Assembly (NCBI GenBank): GCA_030614785.1
Contig: JAUWTJ010000042.1
Location: 1 to 35,411 of the forward strand
DNA length: 35,411 nt
Direction: 5' to 3'
Source of the DNA: Alphaproteobacteria bacterium
GTDB lineage: Bacteria > Pseudomonadota > Alphaproteobacteria > M2410
The notes under the pieces were generated by a model. The model was not told the DNA's origin and made no database searches. It worked only from the letters and a program-made list of their open reading frames with translations. Below are positions 214 through 16,288 of the stretch, in pieces. Each line of letters starts with the position of its first letter. The first letter of the stretch is position 1. The position numbers and the translations under genes were made by a program.

Positions 214-1296
214 ATGGCGCCAATACCACAAGGCGGAACAGTTGCCGTGACCGGCAGCGCTGGATTTATCGGCGGATGGGTCGTTCGGCAGCTTTTGGAC
301 AAGGGCTACAGGGTACGCGCCTGCGTGCGGGACGCAAACGACGCAAAGAAAACGGCCTTTCTCAAGGCCATGCCGGGCTATGCCTCCGGTCGTTTGACAC
401 TTCATTCGGCAGACCTCGATGAGGCTGGCTGCTTTGATGAGATCTTCAAGGGCTGCCAGGGCGTTGCGCACCTGTCCCATGTCTCCACCTATGATGACAT
501 GGACTACGTCAAAATGGTCTGTGATCACGTCATCAACAGCATCAACATGTCGGAAACCGTAAACCGCGTCGTTGTGACGTCCAGTATTGCTGCCGTGATC
601 TCCGAACAGGATATGCAGGAGCTTGTCCGGCGGCCGGTCCTTTACGAAGACCGCTATCCTGATGAACAAAATCCCAAACGCCTGGCGGCGCGTGGCCAGG
701 GCTATTCCATGGGCAAGGTCCTCGCAGAACGCGCCTTTGCTGACGCTGCCGAGGCAAGTGGCCGCTGGGACGCCATCACCTGTTGTCCCGGAGATAATGT
801 CGGTCCTATTCAGGCGCCACACCAAAAGGATTTTGGCCCCTGGCAACACAACATCGAGACCATGATGCTGGGCGAGTATACACAAAACGTGATCGGCGCC
901 TATCGAGCATGGTATACCGTTGATGTGCGTGACACGGCGGAGGCACATATTCGTATGCTCGAAAGTGTCGGAGTTGAAAACGGTGAGCGTTTCATTGCCT
1001 GGTCGACAGAGACACGCAACGTGGAAGACGTCTGCGCCAGCATTGACCGCCTTCTTCCTGAACTGGGGTTCGCCGGCGCGACACTTGTTGATCCGTTTCC
1101 GGAGAAAATTCAGGCAAGGGAAGCCGAATTCAGGGCCATCTGGGGCGGCTGCGAATTGCGCAATGACCGTATCCGGGCAGCCCTCGGCATGGAGTTTCGC
1201 ACGCTCGATGTTTCCATTCGCGACTGTGTGGAATCTCTGTTGTCGGTGGCAAAGGTCAAGCCTGTGCTCAAACCGGGGTTTGAGCTGCGAACCTGA
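214..1296 (+). CDS. NAD(P)-dependent epimerase/dehydratase (extended SDR, dihydroflavonol-reductase-like)
   Basis: This 360-residue protein has the extended short-chain dehydrogenase layout. A Rossmann dinucleotide site lies near the N-terminus (VTGSAGFIGGWVV, about residues 12-24), followed by basic residues (RACVRD) at the end of beta 2 that suggest NADP. The catalytic Tyr-Lys pair is in YSMGK near residue 166, and TSS precedes it as the catalytic Ser strand. Length and motif spacing fit dihydroflavonol-4-reductase or cinnamoyl-CoA-reductase-like enzymes, which reduce a carbonyl or epimerise a sugar; the substrate cannot be told. The ATG at 214 has AGGGAGAAGA just upstream as ribosome site. 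Its neighbours, a VOC protein and two dead enzymes, suggest a decaying catabolic cluster. Confidence 0.85.
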   Translation: MAPIPQGGTVAVTGSAGFIGGWVVRQLLDKGYRVRACVRDANDAKKTAFLKAMPGYASGRLTLHSADLDEAGCFDEIFKGCQGVAHLSHVSTYDDMDYVKMVCDHVINSINMSETVNRVVVTSSIAAVISEQDMQELVRRPVLYEDRYPDEQNPKRLAARGQGYSMGKVLAERAFADAAEASGRWDAITCCPGDNVGPIQAPHQKDFGPWQHNIETMMLGEYTQNVIGAYRAWYTVDVRDTAEAHIRMLESVGVENGERFIAWSTETRNVEDVCASIDRLLPELGFAGATLVDPFPEKIQAREAEFRAIWGGCELRNDRIRAALGMEFRTLDVSIRDCVESLLSVAKVKPVLKPGFELRT

Positions 1297-1424
1297 TAAT
1301 TGCAAGCGTTGCCCCCTGATATTTGCGAGCGCTGCTCGATGTCAACATAATCTGCCTGTTAATGATTTGTCAGACATCAGTAGCGCTTGCCATTTGCATC
1401 TGATGGGCGGGCACTCTGATTGCG

Positions 1425-1895
1425 CTACTTGCCTTTAGCACTCTTTTTGTTTTGCCCAATATTCGCATCACGAATCTCTTCCGGCGTTTCCTTTCTCCTG
1501 GTGTTGTTTTCCAGTTCCGGCGGGACATACCAGTGCACCTTGTCACCATGGTAGGCGTTCCAGACAGCCTCTGCGACTTCACAAGGCGCTATGGTCCTGG
1601 AGGCGTCTGTTCTGTCTGCATTCCTTTTGGGTGTCTTTTCAAAAGTCGAAACCGCCTTGCCGTCAACGTATCTGTTGCTTCGCCACAAGGGCGTGTCGAT
1701 AATTCCCGGCAGCACATCCGAGGCTCGGGAGCCAAACCGCGCCAGTTCAACGCTCATCGCCTGGGTAAAGCCCTTCACAGCAAATTTTGTGGCACTATAA
1801 ACGGCCATTCCTGCTGTGCCAAAGATGGCCGCAGACGATGATGTGGTAAAGCACAGAGAGTTCTCTTCCTTGTGAAAGCTCTGTTTGACATCGGG
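1425..1895 (-). pseudogene. Short-chain dehydrogenase/reductase remnant, C-terminal half
   Basis: The reverse strand is open from 1895 to TAG 1427-1425. It encodes the catalytic half of a classical SDR: a Ser-containing strand (FTTSSSAAIFGTAG), the YSATK active-site pair and the following helix (FAVKGFTQAMSVEL), then PGIIDTPLW and a C-terminal tail. The Rossmann half with the TGxxxGIG motif is missing. An in-frame TGA lies at 1898-1896 and no continuation is recognisable beyond it. From the internal Met at 1808 a 127-residue product could be made, but it would lack the cofactor site. I read it as a gene decapitated by deletion. It faces the neighbouring hydrolase remnant head to head. Confidence 0.75.
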
Positions 1896-2032
1896 TCAAT
1901 TAAACTGGCGACGCTTAATGTCCGGGCAGCATGATTGTAATTGCGCAATTTGTCACAATGGAATTGATTAAGTCACGATTGGTATCAAACTCAAAACATT
2001 CAGTTTGGCAAACTTCAGAAAGAGAGCAGACC

Positions 2033-2266
2033 GTGGAAGATGTGTGGGACCGAGTAGAGCACTGCTATACCGACAATGACGGCACGAGAATTCACTATGT
2101 GACCCTTGGGGAAGGAGAGCCAATTGTCTTCGTCCAGGGATTTCCCGATTTCTGGTATTCGTGGCGCCATTAAATGAAAGCACTGGCACCCCGCTTTAAA
2201 GTCATTGCAATCGACATGCGCGGCTATAATTTGAGCGATCAGCCGGAGGGGATCAAAGACACTTGA
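2033..2266 (+). pseudogene. Alpha/beta hydrolase (epoxide-hydrolase-like) remnant with internal stop
   Basis: A GTG at 2033, preceded by AGAGAG, opens a reading frame whose product begins VEDVWDRVEH and runs through VTLGEGEPIVFVQGFPDF. That is the beta 3 / oxyanion HG-x-P region of soluble epoxide hydrolase-like alpha/beta hydrolases, here QGFP rather than HGFP. After WYSWRH comes TAA (2171-2173), then the same frame continues MKALAPRFKVIAIDMRGYN and LSDQPEG up to TGA 2264-2266. Relatives read WRHQM here, so the TAA is explained by one CAA or CAG to TAA change. Everything beyond about one third of the protein, including the nucleophile elbow, is absent. An upstream in-frame ATG at 1931 exists but adds unrelated residues. 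Confidence 0.8.
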
Positions 2267-2321
2267 GTGAAAATCGAAGCGTTGGTTTGGCGGGTTGCCG
2301 ATGGCCCTGTTCCCACGCCAC

Positions 2322-2351
2322 AAAAAAAAGGCGGCTCCCGGAGGAACCACC
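2322..2351 (-). terminator. Rho-independent terminator of ahcY
   Basis: On the reverse strand, 24 bases after the ahcY stop codon, the arms GGUGGUUCC and GGAGCCGCC form nine pairs (two G-U) around a UCCG loop and are followed by eight U residues. This is a textbook intrinsic terminator and closes the ahcY transcript. Confidence 0.9.
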
Positions 2352-2375
2352 TTAAACTTTGTACGCTGACTAAAA

Positions 2376-3689
2376 CTAGTAGCGATAGTGATCAGGCTTG
2401 AACGGGCCTTCTTGCGCCACGTCGATATAGGCCGCCTGCTCTTCGGAGAGAACAGTAAGCGTGGCGCCAAGCTTGGCCAGATGAAGCTGGGCAACCTTTT
2501 CATCGAGATGTTTTGGCAACACATAGACCTGGTTTTTGTAGTTGGCGTGGTTCTTCCACAGCTCGATTTGCGCCAGCACCTGATTGGTAAAACTGGCACT
2601 CATCACAAAGCTCGGGTGGCCGGTTCCGCAACCAAGATTGACCAGACGCCCTTCAGCGAGAAGGATCATCCGCTTGCCATCGGGGAAAAGGATTTCGTCG
2701 ACCTGCGGCTTGACATTTTGCCATTCAAAATTGCGCAGCGCAGCAACCTGAATTTCACTGTCGAAATGACCGATGTTGCAAACAATCGCCCGGTCCTTCA
2801 TGGCGCGCATGTGATCAATGGTGATGATGTCCTTGTTACCGGTACAGGTGACAAAAATATCGCCGCGCGGGGCAGCGTCTTCCATGGTGACAACTTCGTA
2901 GCCTTGCATCGCAGCCTGCAGTGCGCAAATCGGATCAATTTCTGTCACCAGAACGCGGGCGCCCTGAGAGCGCAGGCTTTCCGCCGAGCCCTTGCCAACA
3001 TCGCCAAAACCGCCGACAACAGCAATCTTGCCGGCCAGCATCACATCGGTTGCCCGCTTGATGCCGTCGACAAGGCTTTCACGGCAGCCATAAAGATTGT
3101 CGAACTTCGACTTGGTGACACTGTCATTGACATTGATCGCCGGGATCTTCAGCTTGCCGGCCTTGGCCATTTCATAGAGCCGCAGAACACCGGTGGTGGT
3201 TTCTTCGGAAACACCGACGCAATCGTCAAGGTATCCGGCAAAACGCTCTTCATGCATCATCGTGGTCAGGTCGCCGCCGTCATCGAGCAGGATGTTTGGA
3301 CGCCAGCCATCAGGACCTTCGATGGTCTGTTCAATGCACCAGGCCGATTCTTCTTCGGTTTGACCCTTCCAGGCAAAAACCGCGATACCCTGGTCAGCAA
3401 TCGCTGCAGCGGCGTGATCCTGGGTCGAGAAGATATTGCACGACGACCAGCGGATTTCAGCACCGAGCGCAATCAGCGTCTCGATGAGAACAGCGGTCTG
3501 AATGGTCATGTGGAGACACCCGGCAACCCGCGCGCCCTTAAGCGGCTGCTCGGCACCAAATTCATCACGGATCGACATCAGACCCGGCATTTCGGTTTCC
3601 GCAATGCGGATTTCCTTGTGGCCCCACTCTGCAAGGCTCATATCGGCGACCTTGAAGTCTCCGGTGTCTTTTACTGCCGCTTGGCTCAT
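2376..3689 (-). CDS. ahcY: Adenosylhomocysteinase
   Basis: S-adenosylhomocysteine hydrolase splits SAH into adenosine and homocysteine, removing the inhibitory by-product of methyl transfer. The 437-residue protein carries the family hallmarks in order: [20 protein letters not shown] (substrate-binding His and Thr), [32 protein letters not shown] with the catalytic Lys, the NAD site GGFGDVGKG at about residues 226-234, NIGHFDSEI, and a C-terminal KPDHYRY. That C-terminal Lys-Tyr pair reaches into the NAD site of the neighbouring subunit in known structures. An ATG at 3689 follows AGGGAGAATG. Upstream lies a promoter with a perfect palindrome over its -10 box; downstream is a strong terminator, so it is probably a single-gene unit beside the PTS block. 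Confidence 0.98.
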
Positions 3690-3799
3690 CTTTCATTCTC
3701 CCTGAAACCGTTTATCTCTATCGGTCTCTAAAATAGCGCGTTCACATGTCAAGGCCAGCCCGGGCGCAAAAATCCGTCACCTCAGGCTGAAACCCAATG

Positions 3800-3840
3800 A
3801 TATAAAGAGATCTTTATATGTTTAAATGATTACATGTCAA
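3800..3840 (-). promoter_or_regulatory. ahcY promoter with palindromic operator (SahR-type candidate)
   Basis: Reading toward ahcY, TTGACA (3840-3835) and TATAAA (3818-3813) are separated by 16 bases, a good sigma-70-like promoter. A perfect inverted repeat, arms ATATAAAGA and TCTTTATAT around two bases (3800-3819), lies exactly over the -10 box. A repressor bound there would block transcription. From memory, a similar ATAAAGAtatCTTTAT palindrome precedes SAM-cycle genes of Alphaproteobacteria and is ascribed to the ArsR-family regulator SahR; that identification is inference. A second TTGACATG sits about 90 bases nearer the gene (around 3747-3754) and could be another promoter. Confidence 0.7.
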
Positions 3841-3869
3841 GAGGATTGAAAAATCCTTAACCCTGTGTT

Positions 3870-5648
3870 TCACCCGAGCGCCATTTCGTTGAAATCGGCC
3901 AGAATCACACTGATCCGGGCCCGGTCCGACTGGCTCATGATCGCCTCCGCGCAGCGTTTCGCTGCACCGCTGTCGAGGCTGCGGATCCGGCCCTTGACCC
4001 GCGGCAAGGCTGAGGCACTCATCGAAAGCTCCTCAATCCCCAACCCCAGAAGCAGGGGCACAATGCGCGCGTCCCCGGCCATCTCACCGCAGACATTGAC
4101 CGGAATACCGGCCGCCGCCCCGGCATTCACGGTAAACTGGATCAGCCGCAGCACTGCCGGGTGCAGCGGATCATAAAGCGTTGCCACCTGATCATTGGCC
4201 CGGTCGATGGCCAGCGTGTACATCGTCAGATCATTGGTCCCGATGGAAAAGAAATCCGCCACCCGTCCCAGCGCATCAGCTGCAAGCGCTGCGGCCGGAA
4301 CCTCGATCATGACACCGATCGGCGGCAGGGGACGCTCTTCAAGACGACCTGAGGCAACCAGCGCCACGCGGATCTCCTCAATCAGACGCCGCACTACCTT
4401 GACCTCCTCCACATTGGAAATCATCGGCAGCAAAATGCGAATGGGGCCAAGCGCACTAACGCGTAAAATGGCGGCGACCTGTGTTGCAAACAGATCCCTG
4501 TGCCGCAGGGAAAACCGGATAGCCCTCAGGCCAAGTGCCGGATTGGCACTGTCGTCGCCATAGTCCGCTTCGAAAACATCGGCAAACTTCTCGCCGCCGA
4601 TATCAAGCGTTCGAATGGTCACCGGCTTGCCGCCCATAGCATTGACAATGGCGGCGAGGGCTTCGAATTGCTCGTCCTCGCTCGGCAAGGTCTCCCGGTT
4701 CATAAACATGAATTCAGTCCGAACCAGCCCGATACCCTCCGCACCGTGAGCATCAGCCAGACCCACCTCAACAGGAAGTTCAATATTCGCCTTGAGAGAA
4801 ATTCGGGTCCCGTCACGGGTCAGCGCCGGAAGCTCTCGCAAGCGCGCGAGGCTCTGTTCATTTTCCACTTGCCTTGCATGGCGCGCTCGATACTCGGCAA
4901 TCTCGGCATCCGTCGGCCTGAAAATAATGCGGCCCTCGGTGCCATCGAGAATCGCCAGATCGCCGCGCCGTGCCGCCTTCAACAGACCGCTCACCCCCAG
5001 AACCGCCGGGATGCCCAGAGAGCGCGCCATAATCGCCGTATGGCCCTCCGCCCCGCCAAGGATCGTCGCAAAACCGCCAACCAAAGCCGGATCCATCAGG
5101 GCCGCATCAGACGGCGTAATCTCATCGGCAACAATAATACTGCCCTTGGGAACACCGCCATAACGCGGCATCGGGGCCTGCACGAGATTGCGAATGAGCC
5201 GGGTTCCGACTTCCTGAATATCGTCGATCCGGCCTGCCAGATAGACATCTGTAATGGCCCGGTATTGCCCGGCGATTTCCGCGATACCGTCCTCAACCGC
5301 CGCCTCTGCATTGAGGCCTTCGTCAATGCGCGCCTCGATGCCGCGGACCAGCCTTGAGCCGGACAACATTTGGCTGTGCGCGTCGAGCAGATCACCGACC
5401 TCCTCGGCCACGCTCCCGGCCTTTGCCGCAATCTCCTGTCTGAGCAGCGCAATCTGTTCAAGCGCGCCCGCCACCGCAGCGGAAAACCGCTGCAACTCAT
5501 CGGCACGTTTTGTTCTGGAAATTTCATAGCGCGGGATGTGAAGCCTGCCCGGCGCAACAGGAAAAACCGGGCCGATCACAATCCCGGGTGCCGCGCCGAT
5601 CCCTTCACAGATCACGGGGGATTTGTCCGAGGGTCTAGTCTTCATCAA
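3870..5648 (-). CDS. ptsP: Phosphoenolpyruvate-protein phosphotransferase (PTS enzyme I), no GAF domain
   Basis: Enzyme I takes phosphate from PEP and passes it to HPr. The 592-residue protein has the N-terminal HPr-binding/phosphohistidine region, with the active His in GGAEGHTAIMARSLGIPAVLG (about His203), then the PEP-binding TIM barrel with EGIGLVRTEFMFMNR, IRTLDIGGEKF, the metal-binding GVMIEVPAA, FFSIGTNDLTMYTLAIDR and the catalytic Cys region VCGEMAGD. There is no N-terminal GAF domain, so by structure it is a plain EI rather than EI-Ntr, although ptsP is the symbol usually attached in this class. The ATG at 5648 overlaps the end of ptsH by 14 bases, implying coupled translation. It is the last gene of the chvI-to-ptsP block. 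Confidence 0.95.
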   Translation of the reverse strand: MMKTRPSDKSPVICEGIGAAPGIVIGPVFPVAPGRLHIPRYEISRTKRADELQRFSAAVAGALEQIALLRQEIAAKAGSVAEEVGDLLDAHSQMLSGSRLVRGIEARIDEGLNAEAAVEDGIAEIAGQYRAITDVYLAGRIDDIQEVGTRLIRNLVQAPMPRYGGVPKGSIIVADEITPSDAALMDPALVGGFATILGGAEGHTAIMARSLGIPAVLGVSGLLKAARRGDLAILDGTEGRIIFRPTDAEIAEYRARHARQVENEQSLARLRELPALTRDGTRISLKANIELPVEVGLADAHGAEGIGLVRTEFMFMNRETLPSEDEQFEALAAIVNAMGGKPVTIRTLDIGGEKFADVFEADYGDDSANPALGLRAIRFSLRHRDLFATQVAAILRVSALGPIRILLPMISNVEEVKVVRRLIEEIRVALVASGRLEERPLPPIGVMIEVPAAALAADALGRVADFFSIGTNDLTMYTLAIDRANDQVATLYDPLHPAVLRLIQFTVNAGAAAGIPVNVCGEMAGDARIVPLLLGLGIEELSMSASALPRVKGRIRSLDSGAAKRCAEAIMSQSDRARISVILADFNEMALG

Positions 5649-5928
5649 ATTTCGCCTCGATCAATTCAACAATCGCTTCAAGGGCCTCGCTCGCTTGCGG
5701 CCCGCTGGCGGTTATCGAGATGGAGGACCCTTTCGCAGCGGCGAGCATCATCAGCCCCATGATCGACGTACCGACAACGTTCATCCCGTCACGCGAGACG
5801 ATCAACTCGGCATCAAAGTCTGCGGCGCGCTTGACAAATTTGGCGGATGCGCGCGCGTGCAGACCACGTTGATTGGCGATCTTGACCTCACGGGACAGTG
5901 CCACGCCTTCGTCCTCATCAGCACTCAC
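5635..5928 (-). CDS. ptsH: Phosphocarrier protein HPr
   Basis: This is a 97-residue HPr. It carries the phosphoacceptor His in QRGLHARASAKFV (His24) and the HprK target Ser in VGTSIMGLMML (Ser55), exactly the 31-residue spacing of His15 and Ser46 in classical HPr. The roughly ten extra N-terminal residues are acidic. HPr receives phosphate from EI and gives it to EIIA; phosphorylation of the Ser by HprK slows that flow. It sits 31 bases downstream of the EIIA gene and overlaps the EI gene, so one mRNA supplies the whole chain. Confidence 0.96.
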   Translation of the reverse strand: MSADEDEGVALSREVKIANQRGLHARASAKFVKRAADFDAELIVSRDGMNVVGTSIMGLMMLAAAKGSSISITASGPQASEALEAIVELIEAKFDED

Positions 5929-5959: not shown

Positions 5960-6367
5960 CTATTGATCATCGCCGGAAAGAACATTCGAGGCAACATTGA
6001 TATACTTGCGCCCGGACTCTTGTGCCTGATCAACAGCGCTTTTGAGATCATTGTCGCCGCGCACCGATGCCAGCTTGATCAGCATGGGCAGATTGATACC
6101 CGCGATCACTTCGACATTGGCGTTGTCCATAATAGAAATCGCCAGATTGGACGGCGTCCCGCCAAACATATCCGTAAGCAGAATAACGCCGTTACCATCA
6201 TCGACCGTGGCAACTGCGCTCAGAATTTCCTTGCGGCGTTGCTCCATATCATCATCTGGCCCGATACACACCGCAACGGTGGCCGACTGCGGCCCGACCA
6301 CATGCTCTGTCGCGGCAATAAATTCTTTGGCCAACAGGCCGTGTGTCACAAGCACCAATCCAATCAT
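5960..6367 (-). CDS. manX: PTS EIIA component, mannose/fructose (EIIA-Man) family
   Basis: The 135-residue cytosolic EIIA-Man domain starts MIGLVLVTHGLLAKEF, with the phosphorylated His at position 9, and has the conserved VILLTDMFGGTPSNLA loop and an ANVEVIAGINLPML strand. No EIIB, EIIC or EIID is encoded anywhere in the window, so the domain cannot be driving sugar import from this locus. In related Alphaproteobacteria such soluble EIIA proteins are the output of a regulatory PTS. It lies between hprK (86 bases upstream) and ptsH (31 bases downstream), same strand. Confidence 0.94.
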   Translation of the reverse strand: MIGLVLVTHGLLAKEFIAATEHVVGPQSATVAVCIGPDDDMEQRRKEILSAVATVDDGNGVILLTDMFGGTPSNLAISIMDNANVEVIAGINLPMLIKLASVRGDNDLKSAVDQAQESGRKYINVASNVLSGDDQ

Positions 6368-6453
6368 AGTCTCAACACCAATTCATTGATCCGGCCAACC
6401 AGGCGTCGCCGCACGCTTAAAGACAAGCTTCGCCTGTTTTCAGGAGTTCTTTC

Positions 6454-6888
6454 CTATCCCAGAAGGGAGCCAAGCGCCACTTTTACTTTTTGCGGCGCAG
6501 AGGCTTCAAACGCAAAAAGGTCAAGCACCGGCAGGTCCAGACCGAGGATGTTTTCCATTTTCGCATCCGGTAATCTGGGAACATCTTCAAGGGGAACCAG
6601 ATTGACAATCAGGGCCAGAGGCACCCGCGCCCGGGCCGGCATCGGCACCACCCCGACACCCCGAACCTCAAGCAAACCGGCAATCGCGGCTGGCGCCGAG
6701 GCATGGACAAGACCGCCCGACAGCACCAGCTGGATCTGATCATCGGCCACCAGCACGGCGCCGCCGTCAATCAACCGCAAGGCGAGATCGGACTTGCCGG
6801 AGCCGGACTTGCCGCGCAGCACCACACCCCAGCCATCCAGGGCAACAACCGTGCCGTACATCAGCGCACCGCCGGAAACCTCACTCAT
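6454..6888 (-). CDS. hprK: HPr kinase/phosphorylase, short alphaproteobacterial form
   Basis: The 144-residue protein corresponds to the C-terminal catalytic domain only of the roughly 310-residue Gram-positive enzyme, which is the normal size in Alphaproteobacteria. It shows the P-loop GKSGSGKSDLAL (about residues 26-37), the ADDQ catalytic segment and the LEVRGVGV signature. It phosphorylates the regulatory Ser of HPr with ATP and can reverse the reaction. Its ATG at 6888 overlaps the chvG stop by four bases (ATGA), so translation is coupled to the sensor kinase. That ties PTS phosphorylation to the ChvG/ChvI signal at the level of expression. Confidence 0.95.
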   Translation of the reverse strand: MSEVSGGALMYGTVVALDGWGVVLRGKSGSGKSDLALRLIDGGAVLVADDQIQLVLSGGLVHASAPAAIAGLLEVRGVGVVPMPARARVPLALIVNLVPLEDVPRLPDAKMENILGLDLPVLDLFAFEASAPQKVKVALGSLLG

Positions 6889-8717
6889 ATCCGGCCTCCC
6901 CTGGAACCCTTGCCGGAGGCCCCTTCACTGCCTTTGCGCACCGGGAGAATAACAACAAACCTGGCGCCCGCGATCTCGCCATCAACTGTGCCCGCGCGGT
7001 TCTCGGCCCAGATCTTGCCATCCAGCATCTCGACAATCTGCCGCGAGATTGACAGGCCCAAACCTGAGTTCGTGCCGAATTCATCCTGCTCGGGTCGCTC
7101 CGTGTAGAAACGTTCGAAGATGTTTTCAAGATTGTCTTCCGGGATGCCAGGACCCATATCCTCGACCACGACGCACACCACATCCTGACCTTGATAGAGG
7201 CGGCGAAACAACGTGACCTCAATCATGTCTCCGGCGGCAGAGAACGACACCGCATTGTTAATGAGATTGCGAAACACCTGCCCGAGACGGCCTTCAAGAC
7301 CGTTGACCACAAAACTGCGATCCGGGGCATCGCGGTCGCGCGCCACCGTGAGCTTGACGTGCGGGGCGCCCTCACGGCGCGTTGCCTCATAGACCTGATG
7401 CAGACCCTCAAGGAAGGGCGCCATATCGAGCGGCTCTGTGGCTTCGCGCACCAGCTCCGCATCAAGTCGCGAGGCGTCGGAAATGTCGCTGATCAGGCGA
7501 TCAAGCCGCCCGACATCCTGAACGATCAGCGCCAGCAATTTTTCCTTCGCCGCATCGTCCTTGACCAGTTCAAGGGTTTCCACCGCGCTGCGGATCGAGG
7601 TCAGCGGGTTCTTGATCTCATGCGCAACGTCGGCGGCAAAACTCTCAATGGCTTCAATCCTGGTATAAAGCGCCCGGATCATGCGTCGGAATGACAGGGA
7701 AAGATCGCCAATCTCATCATTGCGAATGGAAAAGTCAGGCATTTCCACCCGGGCAAAGTTCGTTCCCGTGACCGCTTCGTCGGCGGTTTGCGCCAGACGC
7801 TTGATCGGCCGCACAATATAGACAGAAAAAGCAAGTGACAGAAACACCGTGCCCAGCAAGCCGTAGCCAACCAGCGTGAGGGTCTGAAGACGGCTCTCGC
7901 GGATCATCTGATCAATATCGTCGCCTTCTGCGGTGACTAGCAGAACCCCGAGAACAATCTTGAACCGCCGGATCGGCACGGCAACAGAGACCACCAGATC
8001 GCCTTCAGAATTCTGTCGGCGCGCCGTCGCCGTCTCGCCTTCCAGCGCCCTGGTAACCTCTTCAAAGTCCGTACCCGGCTGATTGGCATATTCGCGGTAC
8101 TGCGGCAGGTTCGACGAAAAGAACAGTTTGACCCACAGGTCATAGACCCCTTCCAGCGGGGAGAACCACCCGCCGTCTTCATCGCCTTGTCCGATCGGCG
8201 CGAGATCGAAGCTTTCGACCTGACCGGCGCCGAGCAGTTTGGAATCTGAAAGCAAACGCCCGCTTTGCGTATAGAGCCGCGCCCGCACATCCGTCGGCGA
8301 GACCATGATGCGCATCATACGGTCGGCCTTCTCCGGCATGATGTCTGTGCTCTCCTCATCGACCACCGTTTCGCTGGCAAACGAGCGCCCGATCAGCTCC
8401 GCCTGAATTTGCATCGCGTCGATCCGGCCCTGCACCAGCTGCTCACGCGATTTGTCGGTGATGAGAAAGACCGCAATGATGACCACAATGAAGAACAGAT
8501 TGAGGGTGATCACCCGCGCCCCGAGCCGGGAAAAAACATGCGGCAGGGACCGGCCGGGCAGCCTCGCGCTGAGCGCAGCAAGACTTGAAGGCACAGGCGC
8601 TGGCGGGATAGCGCTTGAAGATCCTGGCCTTTGCGGCTCATGCGAGGTGCCCGCGTCATCAATCATCGCAGCCCGCTCCTGTCTGGATGACCCCGGAGGC
8701 GGACCCCTGGCGCTCAA
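6885..8717 (-). CDS. chvG: Envelope sensor histidine kinase ChvG (ExoS-type)
   Basis: This 610-residue membrane kinase is ordered as follows: a Pro-rich cytosolic N-terminus, TM1 at about 69-87, a periplasmic stimulus-sensing domain to about 275, TM2 near 280-302, HAMP, HisKA with the phosphorylated His in [13 protein letters not shown] (His366), and HATPase with the N box NLINNAV, DMGPGIP and NSGLGLSIS. This is the architecture of ChvG/ExoS, which senses acid or envelope stress in rhizobia and Agrobacterium. Start and stop codons overlap the flanking genes by four bases each (chvI upstream, hprK downstream), the standard arrangement for this operon. The C-terminus is Gly/Arg-rich and shows no further domain. 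Confidence 0.95.
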
Positions 8718-14879: not shown

Positions 14880-15815
14880 TTAGACCTCCCCTTGCATCCC
14901 CAGAAAACCAATGACCTTTTTGGGTACCAATTCAGAAAGTTGTACTAACACGTCATCTTCAAACTCGACTGAGTGATCGTGCATTCTTGAGTCTGATAAG
15001 CCCAAATTTTTCAGATAGGACATAACTGCAATATGTCGATCAGATTTATCCCGCCCCCAAATACTAGAGATCCTTCTTTTCTTATGGGCTTCCTTTTCAT
15101 TTGAACCAAGAGTGTCGTCTTCAAGATCAGCACAAATCAATTGTCTAAGGTATTCTGTCTCATTCAAGGCTTTGAATTGTTCTATCTCCAAGAGACCCAC
15201 AATATTATGGGCAACCTGGATCATAGAAGCCGTTTCCTTGAAAGTCGGAGCCTTGTTCGCATCAAAGTCTTCCAGCAAACGTTCAACTTCTAAGCCCCTA
15301 TAATCAAGCGCTATCTTGTCACCATTTTCATTCAGGAGTTCCCATCGCTCTTTAGTGATATCGTTTTTAGCCAACGAATGCACACTTCTGTTTCTCCAAG
15401 CGATCATAAATTCTGTCAACGCGACTGTAACGGGATCAAGCGAAGAGTAGTGGGCCTGAAAGGCCAAGAATTTATTGAGAATGCGATTTCCACTTTCATC
15501 CACGTCGTTTCTTAAATCAGCGTTTTGAATCAAAGAGGGCTTTCGTCGCGACCAACTAATATAGGCATCCAAAGCATCCACTGCCCTGATCAATGTCATC
15601 TCCAGAACCAGTCTCCGGCTTCTACGTGACGAAGCAGTTTTATCTTTTGGATTCCACGCGGCACGGAGCTCCTTCGGCGGAGCTTTTATATCGCCCGACT
15701 CGATAGCATCTAAGCCCACAAGTATGGTGACAAGCATTTGATTGGCATTGCCAAGAAGGCTTTTGAATCGCTTTCTTGCTTGGCTGTTATTCAAATAAAG
15801 CGACAATTCGGCCAT
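14880..15815 (-). CDS. HEPN-motif (RNxxxH) protein, putative RNase effector
   Basis: This 311-residue cytosolic protein belongs to no family I can name. It is largely alpha-helical by composition and contains AWRNRSVHSLA with R141-N142-x3-H146, the Rx4-6H motif of HEPN ribonucleases, set in a helix after a DALDAY-containing helix as in HEPN bundles. The C-terminal third is charged (DLEDDTLGSNEKEAHKKRR). Several HEPN proteins (PrrC, RloC and toxin HEPNs) cut tRNA anticodon loops; here a tRNA-like sequence occupies the leader just 23 bases before the start codon. The ATG at 15815 has GAGGA immediately against it, a poorly spaced ribosome site. Composition is AT-rich, suggesting transfer. Function as RNase is inference from the motif and context. 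Confidence 0.6.
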   Translation of the reverse strand: MAELSLYLNNSQARKRFKSLLGNANQMLVTILVGLDAIESGDIKAPPKELRAAWNPKDKTASSRRSRRLVLEMTLIRAVDALDAYISWSRRKPSLIQNADLRNDVDESGNRILNKFLAFQAHYSSLDPVTVALTEFMIAWRNRSVHSLAKNDITKERWELLNENGDKIALDYRGLEVERLLEDFDANKAPTFKETASMIQVAHNIVGLLEIEQFKALNETEYLRQLICADLEDDTLGSNEKEAHKKRRISSIWGRDKSDRHIAVMSYLKNLGLSDSRMHDHSVEFEDDVLVQLSELVPKKVIGFLGMQGEV

Positions 15816-15838
15816 TCCTCAAAGCGGAGCACAACGGA

Positions 15839-15932
15839 GCGCTGGACATGATTCGAACATGCACCTTCCGTTTTGAGGGAACCCCAAAGGGCTCGTTAAA
15901 GACGGACGCTCTTACCCGCAAGCTACCAACGC
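15839..15932 (-). tRNA. tRNA-like cloverleaf with a 30-nt anticodon loop (23-nt insertion)
   Basis: The reverse strand folds as a full tRNA. The acceptor is GCGUUGG (15932-15926) with CCAGCGC (15845-15839), then UA. The D stem GCUU/GAGC encloses an eight-base loop with GGG. After one G comes the anticodon stem UCCGU (15906-15902) / ACGGA (15871-15867), five perfect pairs. The variable region is AGGU, and the T stem GCAUG/CAUGU closes the classic loop UUCGAAU. The anticodon loop (15901-15872) has 30 bases, not 7, and holds its own weak pairing (GAG...CUC, CCC...GGG). No CCA is encoded; the bases after the acceptor are UCCG. It could be a tRNA pseudogene used as an integration site, an unusual tRNA or a regulatory tRNA mimic. 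No ordinary anticodon can be assigned. Confidence 0.6.
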
Positions 15933-15938
15933 GCATAT

Positions 15939-15967
15939 ATCGTACGTTGTACTAAATTTGATTACAA
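15939..15967 (-). promoter_or_regulatory. Candidate promoter for the tRNA-like / HEPN transcript
   Basis: TTGTAA (15967-15962) and TACGAT (15944-15939) lie 17 bases apart, each four of six matches to consensus. Counting seven bases from the -10 box puts the transcript start at 15932, the first base of the tRNA-like acceptor stem. A small inverted repeat GTAC-AAC-GTAC lies between the boxes. Confidence 0.45.
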
Positions 15968-15997
15968 CACCAAATTCCCTTTGCCCGAACTGGACCT

Positions 15998-16288
15998 CTA
16001 AACCAACTCCACCCTCACCTCGCGCCCCAATACCCTCGCAGCCTTGTACAGCGTCTCCAGCTGGATCTTCACATCGTCCGGGTCAAGAATACGGTCGAGC
16101 TGGCTGCGGCTGGTGTTCATCAGCTGCGCCATTTTCACTTTGGTCATGCCCTGGGCGGTCATGGCTTCGCGCAGTTGCCACGATAGAACGCGCTTGATGG
16201 ACTGCGCTGTGATTTCCTCGTAGAGCCCCTCGTCTTTCAGAAAGTCATCGAAAGAAGAGCCAACACTGGAATTTAATTTACCTGCCAT
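15998..16288 (-). CDS. Xre-family helix-turn-helix regulator (antitoxin-like)
   Basis: This 96-residue protein has a helix-turn-helix in its middle: MTKVKMAQLMNTSRSQLDRI, followed by LDPDDVKIQLETLYKAA and a basic C-terminal strand GREVRVELV. This form is typical of HigA-like antitoxins and small autoregulators. No HigB or RelE toxin is found next to it, so it may control the downstream tRNA-like/HEPN/TIR genes or itself. A near-perfect 24-base inverted repeat lies 51 bases before the ATG. Its 3' half is duplicated beyond the HEPN gene. The ribosome site is weak (AAGG well upstream of ATG 16288). Confidence 0.85.
   Translation of the reverse strand: MAGKLNSSVGSSFDDFLKDEGLYEEITAQSIKRVLSWQLREAMTAQGMTKVKMAQLMNTSRSQLDRILDPDDVKIQLETLYKAARVLGREVRVELV

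Follow-up and report, generated by a model that had tools for sequence, protein, structure and literature searches.

In this work, we describe a two-part module in which a predicted HEPN ribonuclease may be held in check by an RNA that mimics a tRNA, a reading to which we give a probability of about 0.5. The module lies in an alphaproteobacterial genome, within the window (i.e., the whole 35,411-nt stretch of DNA that was analysed), and its RNA stands directly before the nuclease gene (Table 1). At the level of sequence, the comparison of 15 loci establishes that RNA and gene are linked, that the fold of the RNA is conserved, and that RNA and protein evolve together; the function proposed for the pair is worded conditionally throughout.

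The tRNA-like RNA was recovered by Rfam as a match to RF00005 at 15838-15932 (-) (46.1 bits, gathering score 29, E 6.5e-7) and by ARAGORN as a tRNA at 15836-15932 (-), each program finding it to be the sole tRNA in the window. The canonical cloverleaf, with its acceptor, D, anticodon and T arms, is complete, and the four stems are fully paired, as the earlier note on this DNA had described. The anticodon loop, by contrast, has 30 nt (CUUUAACGAGCCCUUUGGGGUUCCCUCAAA), also as described, and the canonical 7-nt loop with a readable anticodon is absent from this RNA, ARAGORN finding no anticodon in it. The minimum free energy structure is the full cloverleaf with a further 6-bp hairpin in the anticodon loop (-32.9 kcal/mol), only modestly more stable than the folds of shuffled sequences (z -1.67), so that the case for the RNA rests on comparison and not on energy. 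Among the 40 tRNA matches in the source genome, this one measures 95 nt and the other 39 measure 71-87 nt, and its sequence occurs a single time in that genome. In an arm-by-arm comparison with the tRNAs of the source genome, the window RNA was nearest to tRNA-Arg(UCU) (41/56, next 35). Results outside the window were ambiguous, a pooled reference set being biased towards Arg/Lys, and no clear likeness to one host tRNA was found at most loci, which counts against the antitoxin reading.

Table 1. Features of the module in the window and the evidence or details for each.
Feature	Position	Strand	Details
Candidate promoter TTGTAA-17-TACGAT	15939..15967	-	Weak; start would fall near the first base of the RNA
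tRNA-like RNA	15839..15932	-	94 nt without discriminator; ARAGORN, Rfam, fold, covariation with 13 relatives
Acceptor stem	5' side GCGUUGG 15926..15932, partner CCAGCGC 15839-15845	-	7/7 pairs; both sides change in relatives
D arm	15908..15923	-	4/4 pairs
Anticodon arm	15867..15906	-	5-bp stem (15902-15906 with 15867-15871), 5/5 pairs; loop 15872-15901, 30 nt
Inner fifth hairpin GAGCCC-UUUG-GGGUUC	15879..15894	-	Inside the anticodon loop; minimum-energy fold, 6 bp
T arm, UUCGAAU loop	15846..15862	-	5/5 pairs
Spacer, 23 nt	15816..15838	-	GAGG Shine-Dalgarno-like sequence at 15817-15820; no terminator
HEPN-family protein P0001, 311 aa	14880..15815	-	Motif WRNRSVH at residues 140-146

HEPN proteins with an RxxxxH motif are ribonucleases, and several of them cut tRNA anticodon loops. 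In P0001, the RNxxxH motif reported in the earlier note was recovered as R141/N142/H146, and WRNxxxH is invariant among the 14 aligned proteins of the family. P0001 itself had no family match in Pfam, PADLOC, NCBIfam or PHROGs at the thresholds used, a Pfam HEPN profile included. Its relatives gave weak Pfam matches to HEPN_RiboL-PSP (E 5.5e-4 and 0.008) and, for L143, to HEPN_Apea (E 0.0068), all below the gathering score, and the assignment to the HEPN group is based on these matches together with the invariant WRNxxxH. Two AlphaFold models of the protein, built with 5-6 sequences, were of low confidence (mean pLDDT 59 and 57); the RNxxxH motif is placed at the end of a helix (residues 128-145) with local pLDDT of about 70-89 in a model that is unreliable overall, and PDB/structure searches for the protein returned no match. 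We regard the P0001 family as predicted HEPN ribonucleases, rare and unnamed.

The 15 family loci were gathered from whole genomes, genome contigs, plasmids and viral contigs; they display protein identities of 20-76% and come from alpha- and gammaproteobacteria, plasmids and two IMG/VR contigs, one of them with phage genes. Carriers include Flavisphingopyxis (Sphingorhabdus) soli, an Asticcacaulis sp. MAG, Pseudaminobacter salicylatoxidans, a Pseudoalteromonas plasmid, the two IMG/VR contigs, and several other alpha- and gammaproteobacteria or other phylum members. A tblastn search against plasmids retrieved one record, from Sinorhizobium americanum (40% identity), where nothing is annotated upstream of the gene, yet Rfam detects a tRNA 18 nt before its start codon. 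The family is rare, with 4 of 385 genomes of the class, 4 of 398 in a sample of the phylum and 1 of 369 in the class of genome G424, counts that each include genomes already in hand; it occurs in two plasmid records, and carrying genomes hold one copy, except for one tandem pair. At L013 (1363-2915), two tandem HEPN paralogues lie behind a single tRNA-like RNA, near a TnsA-like gene, and could form a heterodimer.

In all 15 HEPN loci, a cloverleaf lies directly upstream of the gene on the same strand, and its anticodon loop is enlarged to 20-37 nt, a length that would bar the RNA from a part in translation, a loop of normal size being found in none. ARAGORN or Rfam calls the RNA at 11 of them (the window, L003, L004, L005, L006, L008, L009, L012, L013, L018 and L143). 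As for the other four, the L007 RNA aligns closely and at full length with those of L003, L008, L009 and L018; the L015 RNA parses with one D-stem pair missing; the L011 RNA gives a nearly full parse, the anticodon and T stems each having a single mismatch and one base being in excess; and the L016 RNA parses with an ambiguous acceptor stem, in a record where the HEPN reading frame is broken. Further, CCA directly follows the discriminator at six loci (L003, L004, L009, L012, L015 and L018), with a chance probability of 6.5e-8 if loci are independent, which we take as the sign of an end like that of a mature tRNA. Eight loci show the inner hairpin clearly (the six of the main clade, L006 and L143), and elsewhere it is weak or absent, so the long loop, and not the hairpin, is the general feature. 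In about nine loci, CUUUA or CUUCA was observed after the anticodon stem, which in most of these would place a stop-reading UUA or UCA at positions 34-36.

Across 14 aligned sequences, 97.3% of the stem cells are paired, 18 of the 21 pairs have changed on both sides, and none of 1000 shuffles reached any of four covariation measures, the covariation counts being raw and uncorrected for shared ancestry. Among the six main-clade loci, double changes occur in nine pairs, two of which belong to the inner hairpin (A-U to G-C and C-G to U-A), and when the partners are shifted by 1-3 columns, pairing falls from 99% to 24-47%. Judging from these alignments, the structure of the RNA is under selection; the stems covary while the long loop is kept beside the HEPN gene at every locus, the point that the earlier note had proposed to check. 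Furthermore, distances between the RNAs (arms only) follow those between the proteins (Mantel r=0.81, 0/5000 permutations), also when four close relatives are left out (r=0.47, 0/5000 permutations), and on this comparison RNA and protein evolve together.

When the RNA by itself served as the query, the matches led back to the HEPN gene. From 72,556 plasmid records a single one was retrieved, the Sinorhizobium locus with its HEPN gene, whose RNA is 92% identical to the phage-contig RNA; from 2.9 million IMG/VR viral contigs, likewise a single one, L018, with a HEPN gene; and 50,697 phage records gave no match. With a covariance model of the main clade, the window RNA scored 86.6 bits in 385 alphaproteobacterial genomes and all else 60.7 or less, the other listed matches being ordinary tRNAs of 69-73 nt; this model is blind to the divergent clades, whose scores fall short of those of ordinary tRNAs. 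Model R1 recovered held-out loci at 34-45 bits, but ordinary tRNAs reached up to 61 bits, so that only scores well above this value, such as that of the window, are specific, and the held-out matches were excluded as independent proof. No orphan copy of the RNA without a HEPN gene was found in the plasmid, IMG/VR, phage and 385-genome searches. In sum, of the observations that the earlier note had named as speaking against its proposal (homologues without the cloverleaf, stems without covariation, stray copies of the RNA), none was encountered.

The candidate promoter that the earlier note had placed so as to start transcription at the first base of the RNA is weak in the window. A -10-like hexamer ends 6 nt before the window RNA, but the 8/12 match is equalled by 228 of 500 shuffles and a stricter scan of the window found no promoter. 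In the main clade other than the window, TTGACA lies ~36-40 nt upstream of the RNA and a -10-like hexamer ends 6-10 nt before it; given TTGACA at the matching position in several relatives, a start at about the first base of the RNA is plausible in the window as well. Downstream, 23 nt separate the end of the RNA from the ATG at 15815, as had been noted, and the true start is probably the in-frame TTG at 15806, which fits better since homologues begin with M-[PT]-LYL; GAGG stands 10 nt from this TTG and 1 nt from the ATG. A scan of the window found no terminator between the RNA and the HEPN gene, and no tandem repeats were found at 15600-16100.

This arrangement also suits the main rival of the antitoxin reading, an account that we consider rather unlikely: the tRNA-like would be the 5' leader of the HEPN mRNA, and the HEPN protein, recognizing its own leader as a tRNA substrate, would block ribosomes or cut the leader and so limit its own synthesis, with no need for a free antitoxin. 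The lack of a terminator agrees with such a leader and counts against the antitoxin module, as nothing in the sequence makes the RNA exceed the mRNA, unlike in AbiF and type III systems. The distance from the RNA to the likely start codon, 6-32 nt in most loci, agrees with it too, and so does L006, where the ribosome-binding region would overlap the acceptor stem. At L004 (2133-2223) and L005 (1394-1486), moreover, none of the usual start codons stands where one would be expected after the RNA, and the sole plausible ATG in frame appears to fall within the anticodon loop together with a Shine-Dalgarno-like sequence (AAGGGG before the ATG in L004), which a cis-acting leader fits better than a separate RNA and which likewise counts against the antitoxin. 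The thrS operator of E. coli offers a known likeness, being a tRNA-like leader before the gene of a tRNA-binding protein, by which ThrRS limits its own synthesis; there, however, the protein is a synthetase, and operators of this type mimic only parts of a tRNA, with no full cloverleaf with CCA. Conversely, the conserved acceptor stem, D arm and T arm of the present RNAs, and CCA in 6 of the 15 loci, exceed what an operator needs, and RNase P/Z would probably excise a tRNA-like of such quality, destroying the leader. It is because the RNA keeps these traits of a mature tRNA that stands on its own that we favour the decoy or antitoxin.

The genomic setting is that of mobile elements and defence genes. 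Behind the HEPN gene, the window carries a TIR-like neighbour, P0002 (13431-14693, -, 420 aa, weak PF10137), with weak similarity to the CAP12/Pycsar TIR domain (E 0.0061, below cut-off); having relatives in 68 plasmid records, against two for the HEPN family, it was rejected as a constant partner and is probably a separate defence gene. An XRE/HTH_3 protein encoded immediately upstream of the RNA (15998-16288, -) is of the kind found as the antitoxin of RelE/HigB pairs, and what remains of a toxin may precede it. At other loci, the neighbours include ApeA (beside the module), caspase-like and RES proteins (L003), DUF4365 and SIR2 (L023), TnsA (L013), a transposase (L015) and integrases (L007 and L020), and in L018 the module (4896-5927) sits on the opposite strand between phage tail and head genes, as a moron would. 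L009 is flanked by a 1265-aa protein with a weak AAA_16 match and a DUF5677-like protein (656-4453 and 6038-6898). No constant third gene was found across the loci, and the neighbours indicate a mobile or defence cargo.

Within such a setting, which extends to a phage contig, the tRNA-like might instead serve as bait, i.e., as the sacrificial target of phage enzymes that attack or modify tRNAs, whose cleavage or modification would release or switch on the HEPN protein. The exposed long loop, whose 5' part keeps CUUUA or CUUCA in about nine loci, would suit this role. This is a guard version of the antitoxin model; sequence cannot separate the two, and we hold the bait to be unlikely.

Several known systems bear a likeness to the module. 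AbiF (Abi_2 toxin, RNA RCd22, Rfam RF03085) also combines an HEPN RNase, with the motif R(N/H/D)xxxH, and an upstream RNA. In C. difficile, AbiF/RCd22 is carried on a prophage, the small RNA lies directly upstream of the HEPN toxin gene and shares its start site, and RCd22 reduces the expression of the toxin besides neutralising it (PMC12373285). The AbiF RNA, however, is made of two repeated ~35-nt motifs followed by a terminator, whereas that of the module is one cloverleaf with neither repeats nor terminator; the abiF RNA motif RF03085 had no Rfam match in the window (only RF00005 did), and no Abi_2 (AbiD/F) Pfam match was found among 13 family members. Type III toxin-antitoxin systems (ToxIN, CptIN, TenpIN and AbiQ) likewise join a ribonuclease toxin gene and an RNA that precedes it in a single operon, but their antitoxins are tandem repeats and their toxins are of another fold, while the module has no tandem repeats and no terminator, and its toxin would be a HEPN protein. 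PrrC and RloC are HEPN-type anticodon nucleases of phage defence with an ATPase domain, PrrC being held by a protein partner; the module protein, in contrast, is of about 300 aa, gave no ATPase match and has an RNA as its partner. ApeA, which adjoins the module in L003, and other stand-alone HEPN defence proteins are similar as HEPN nucleases in defence islands; to our knowledge, no RNA partner of theirs has been described, and the present family differs from them in having no PADLOC model match (0 of 13 members). By the features tested (Abi_2, abiF RNA, repeats and terminator), the module belongs neither to AbiF nor to the type III systems, like which it would work.

Relatives of AbiF have been proposed as ancestors of Cas13 (PMC12373285), and the module joins a HEPN nuclease to an RNA with a 20-37-nt loop, a combination that invites the thought that the enlarged loop pairs with a target RNA and directs the nuclease as a crRNA does Cas13. 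This is very improbable, as five main-clade loci from different sources (L003, L007, L008, L009 and L018) share nearly the same loop and in eight loci the loop folds on itself, unlike a changing guide, with one copy per genome. Even less credible is an interrupted tRNA, in which the HEPN protein and a host ligase would splice out a short intron to leave a tRNA whose anticodon reads stop codons: UUA or UCA does fall at positions 34-36 in about nine loci, but L004, L005, L012, L013 and L016 do not fit, the borders of the insert vary, and there is neither a conserved bulge-helix-bulge motif nor a constant ligase neighbour. Lastly, the tRNA pseudogene or att-site scar lying by chance beside the HEPN gene, also raised in the earlier note, is rejected, for although tRNA genes are common attachment sites and integrases lie near two loci, the RNA is retained at all 15 loci, its stems covary and it diverges in step with the protein, and at L007 the likely attachment site is an ordinary tRNA (1907-1990) beside the integrase, not the tRNA-like.

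The two functional roles first suggested for the RNA, a decoy or RNA antitoxin and a self-cleaved or autoregulatory leader, thus both stand, and we rank the antitoxin or decoy first, the cis-acting leader second and the phage-sensing bait third. What favours the first is that a stretched-loop look-alike of a tRNA, co-transcribed with the nuclease gene, is the form expected of an inhibitor that mimics a substrate. The two leading roles need not exclude each other, as the AbiF RNA both neutralises its toxin and lowers the expression of the latter, and self-regulation in cis may coexist here with an antitoxin role.

For the inhibition, the processing of the RNA, the target and the trigger, we infer a course in which transcription from the promoter would begin at or near the first base of the RNA, one transcript would probably hold both this RNA and the HEPN ribonuclease gene, and the RNA would be freed, or kept, as a folded tRNA-like body. 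The natural substrates of the HEPN protein are probably the anticodon loops of certain tRNAs, which are also cut by the HEPN nuclease Cas13a according to work cited in PMC12373285; the protein would bind the mimic instead of the tRNA and be held inactive. Phage infection or loss of the element would then remove the RNA, and the freed nuclease would halt growth by cutting tRNAs. Such an RNA-plus-HEPN-toxin module probably acts against phages. More tentatively, it may represent a new type of toxin-antitoxin or phage-sensing system. The antitoxin of such a system would imitate a whole tRNA, its anticodon loop being expanded and often capped by a hairpin, and would fill the active site of a HEPN nuclease that cuts anticodons; a phage that attacks transcription or the tRNA pool would then directly release the nuclease.

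Literature searches, with limited coverage of subscription papers and preprints, did not turn up any description of a HEPN toxin that has a tRNA-like RNA as its partner. Research on bacterial immunity is currently advancing on RNA-controlled HEPN nucleases, among them AbiF, which is linked to Cas13. The module, if the proposal is true, would add an independent HEPN lineage that has a modified tRNA as its RNA partner, and no paper found describes such an origin. It would offer a direct, testable handle on how a nuclease that possibly cuts tRNAs spares its own cell, and it would imply that what is annotated as an odd tRNA, or discarded as one, can have a function as the partner of a defence gene.
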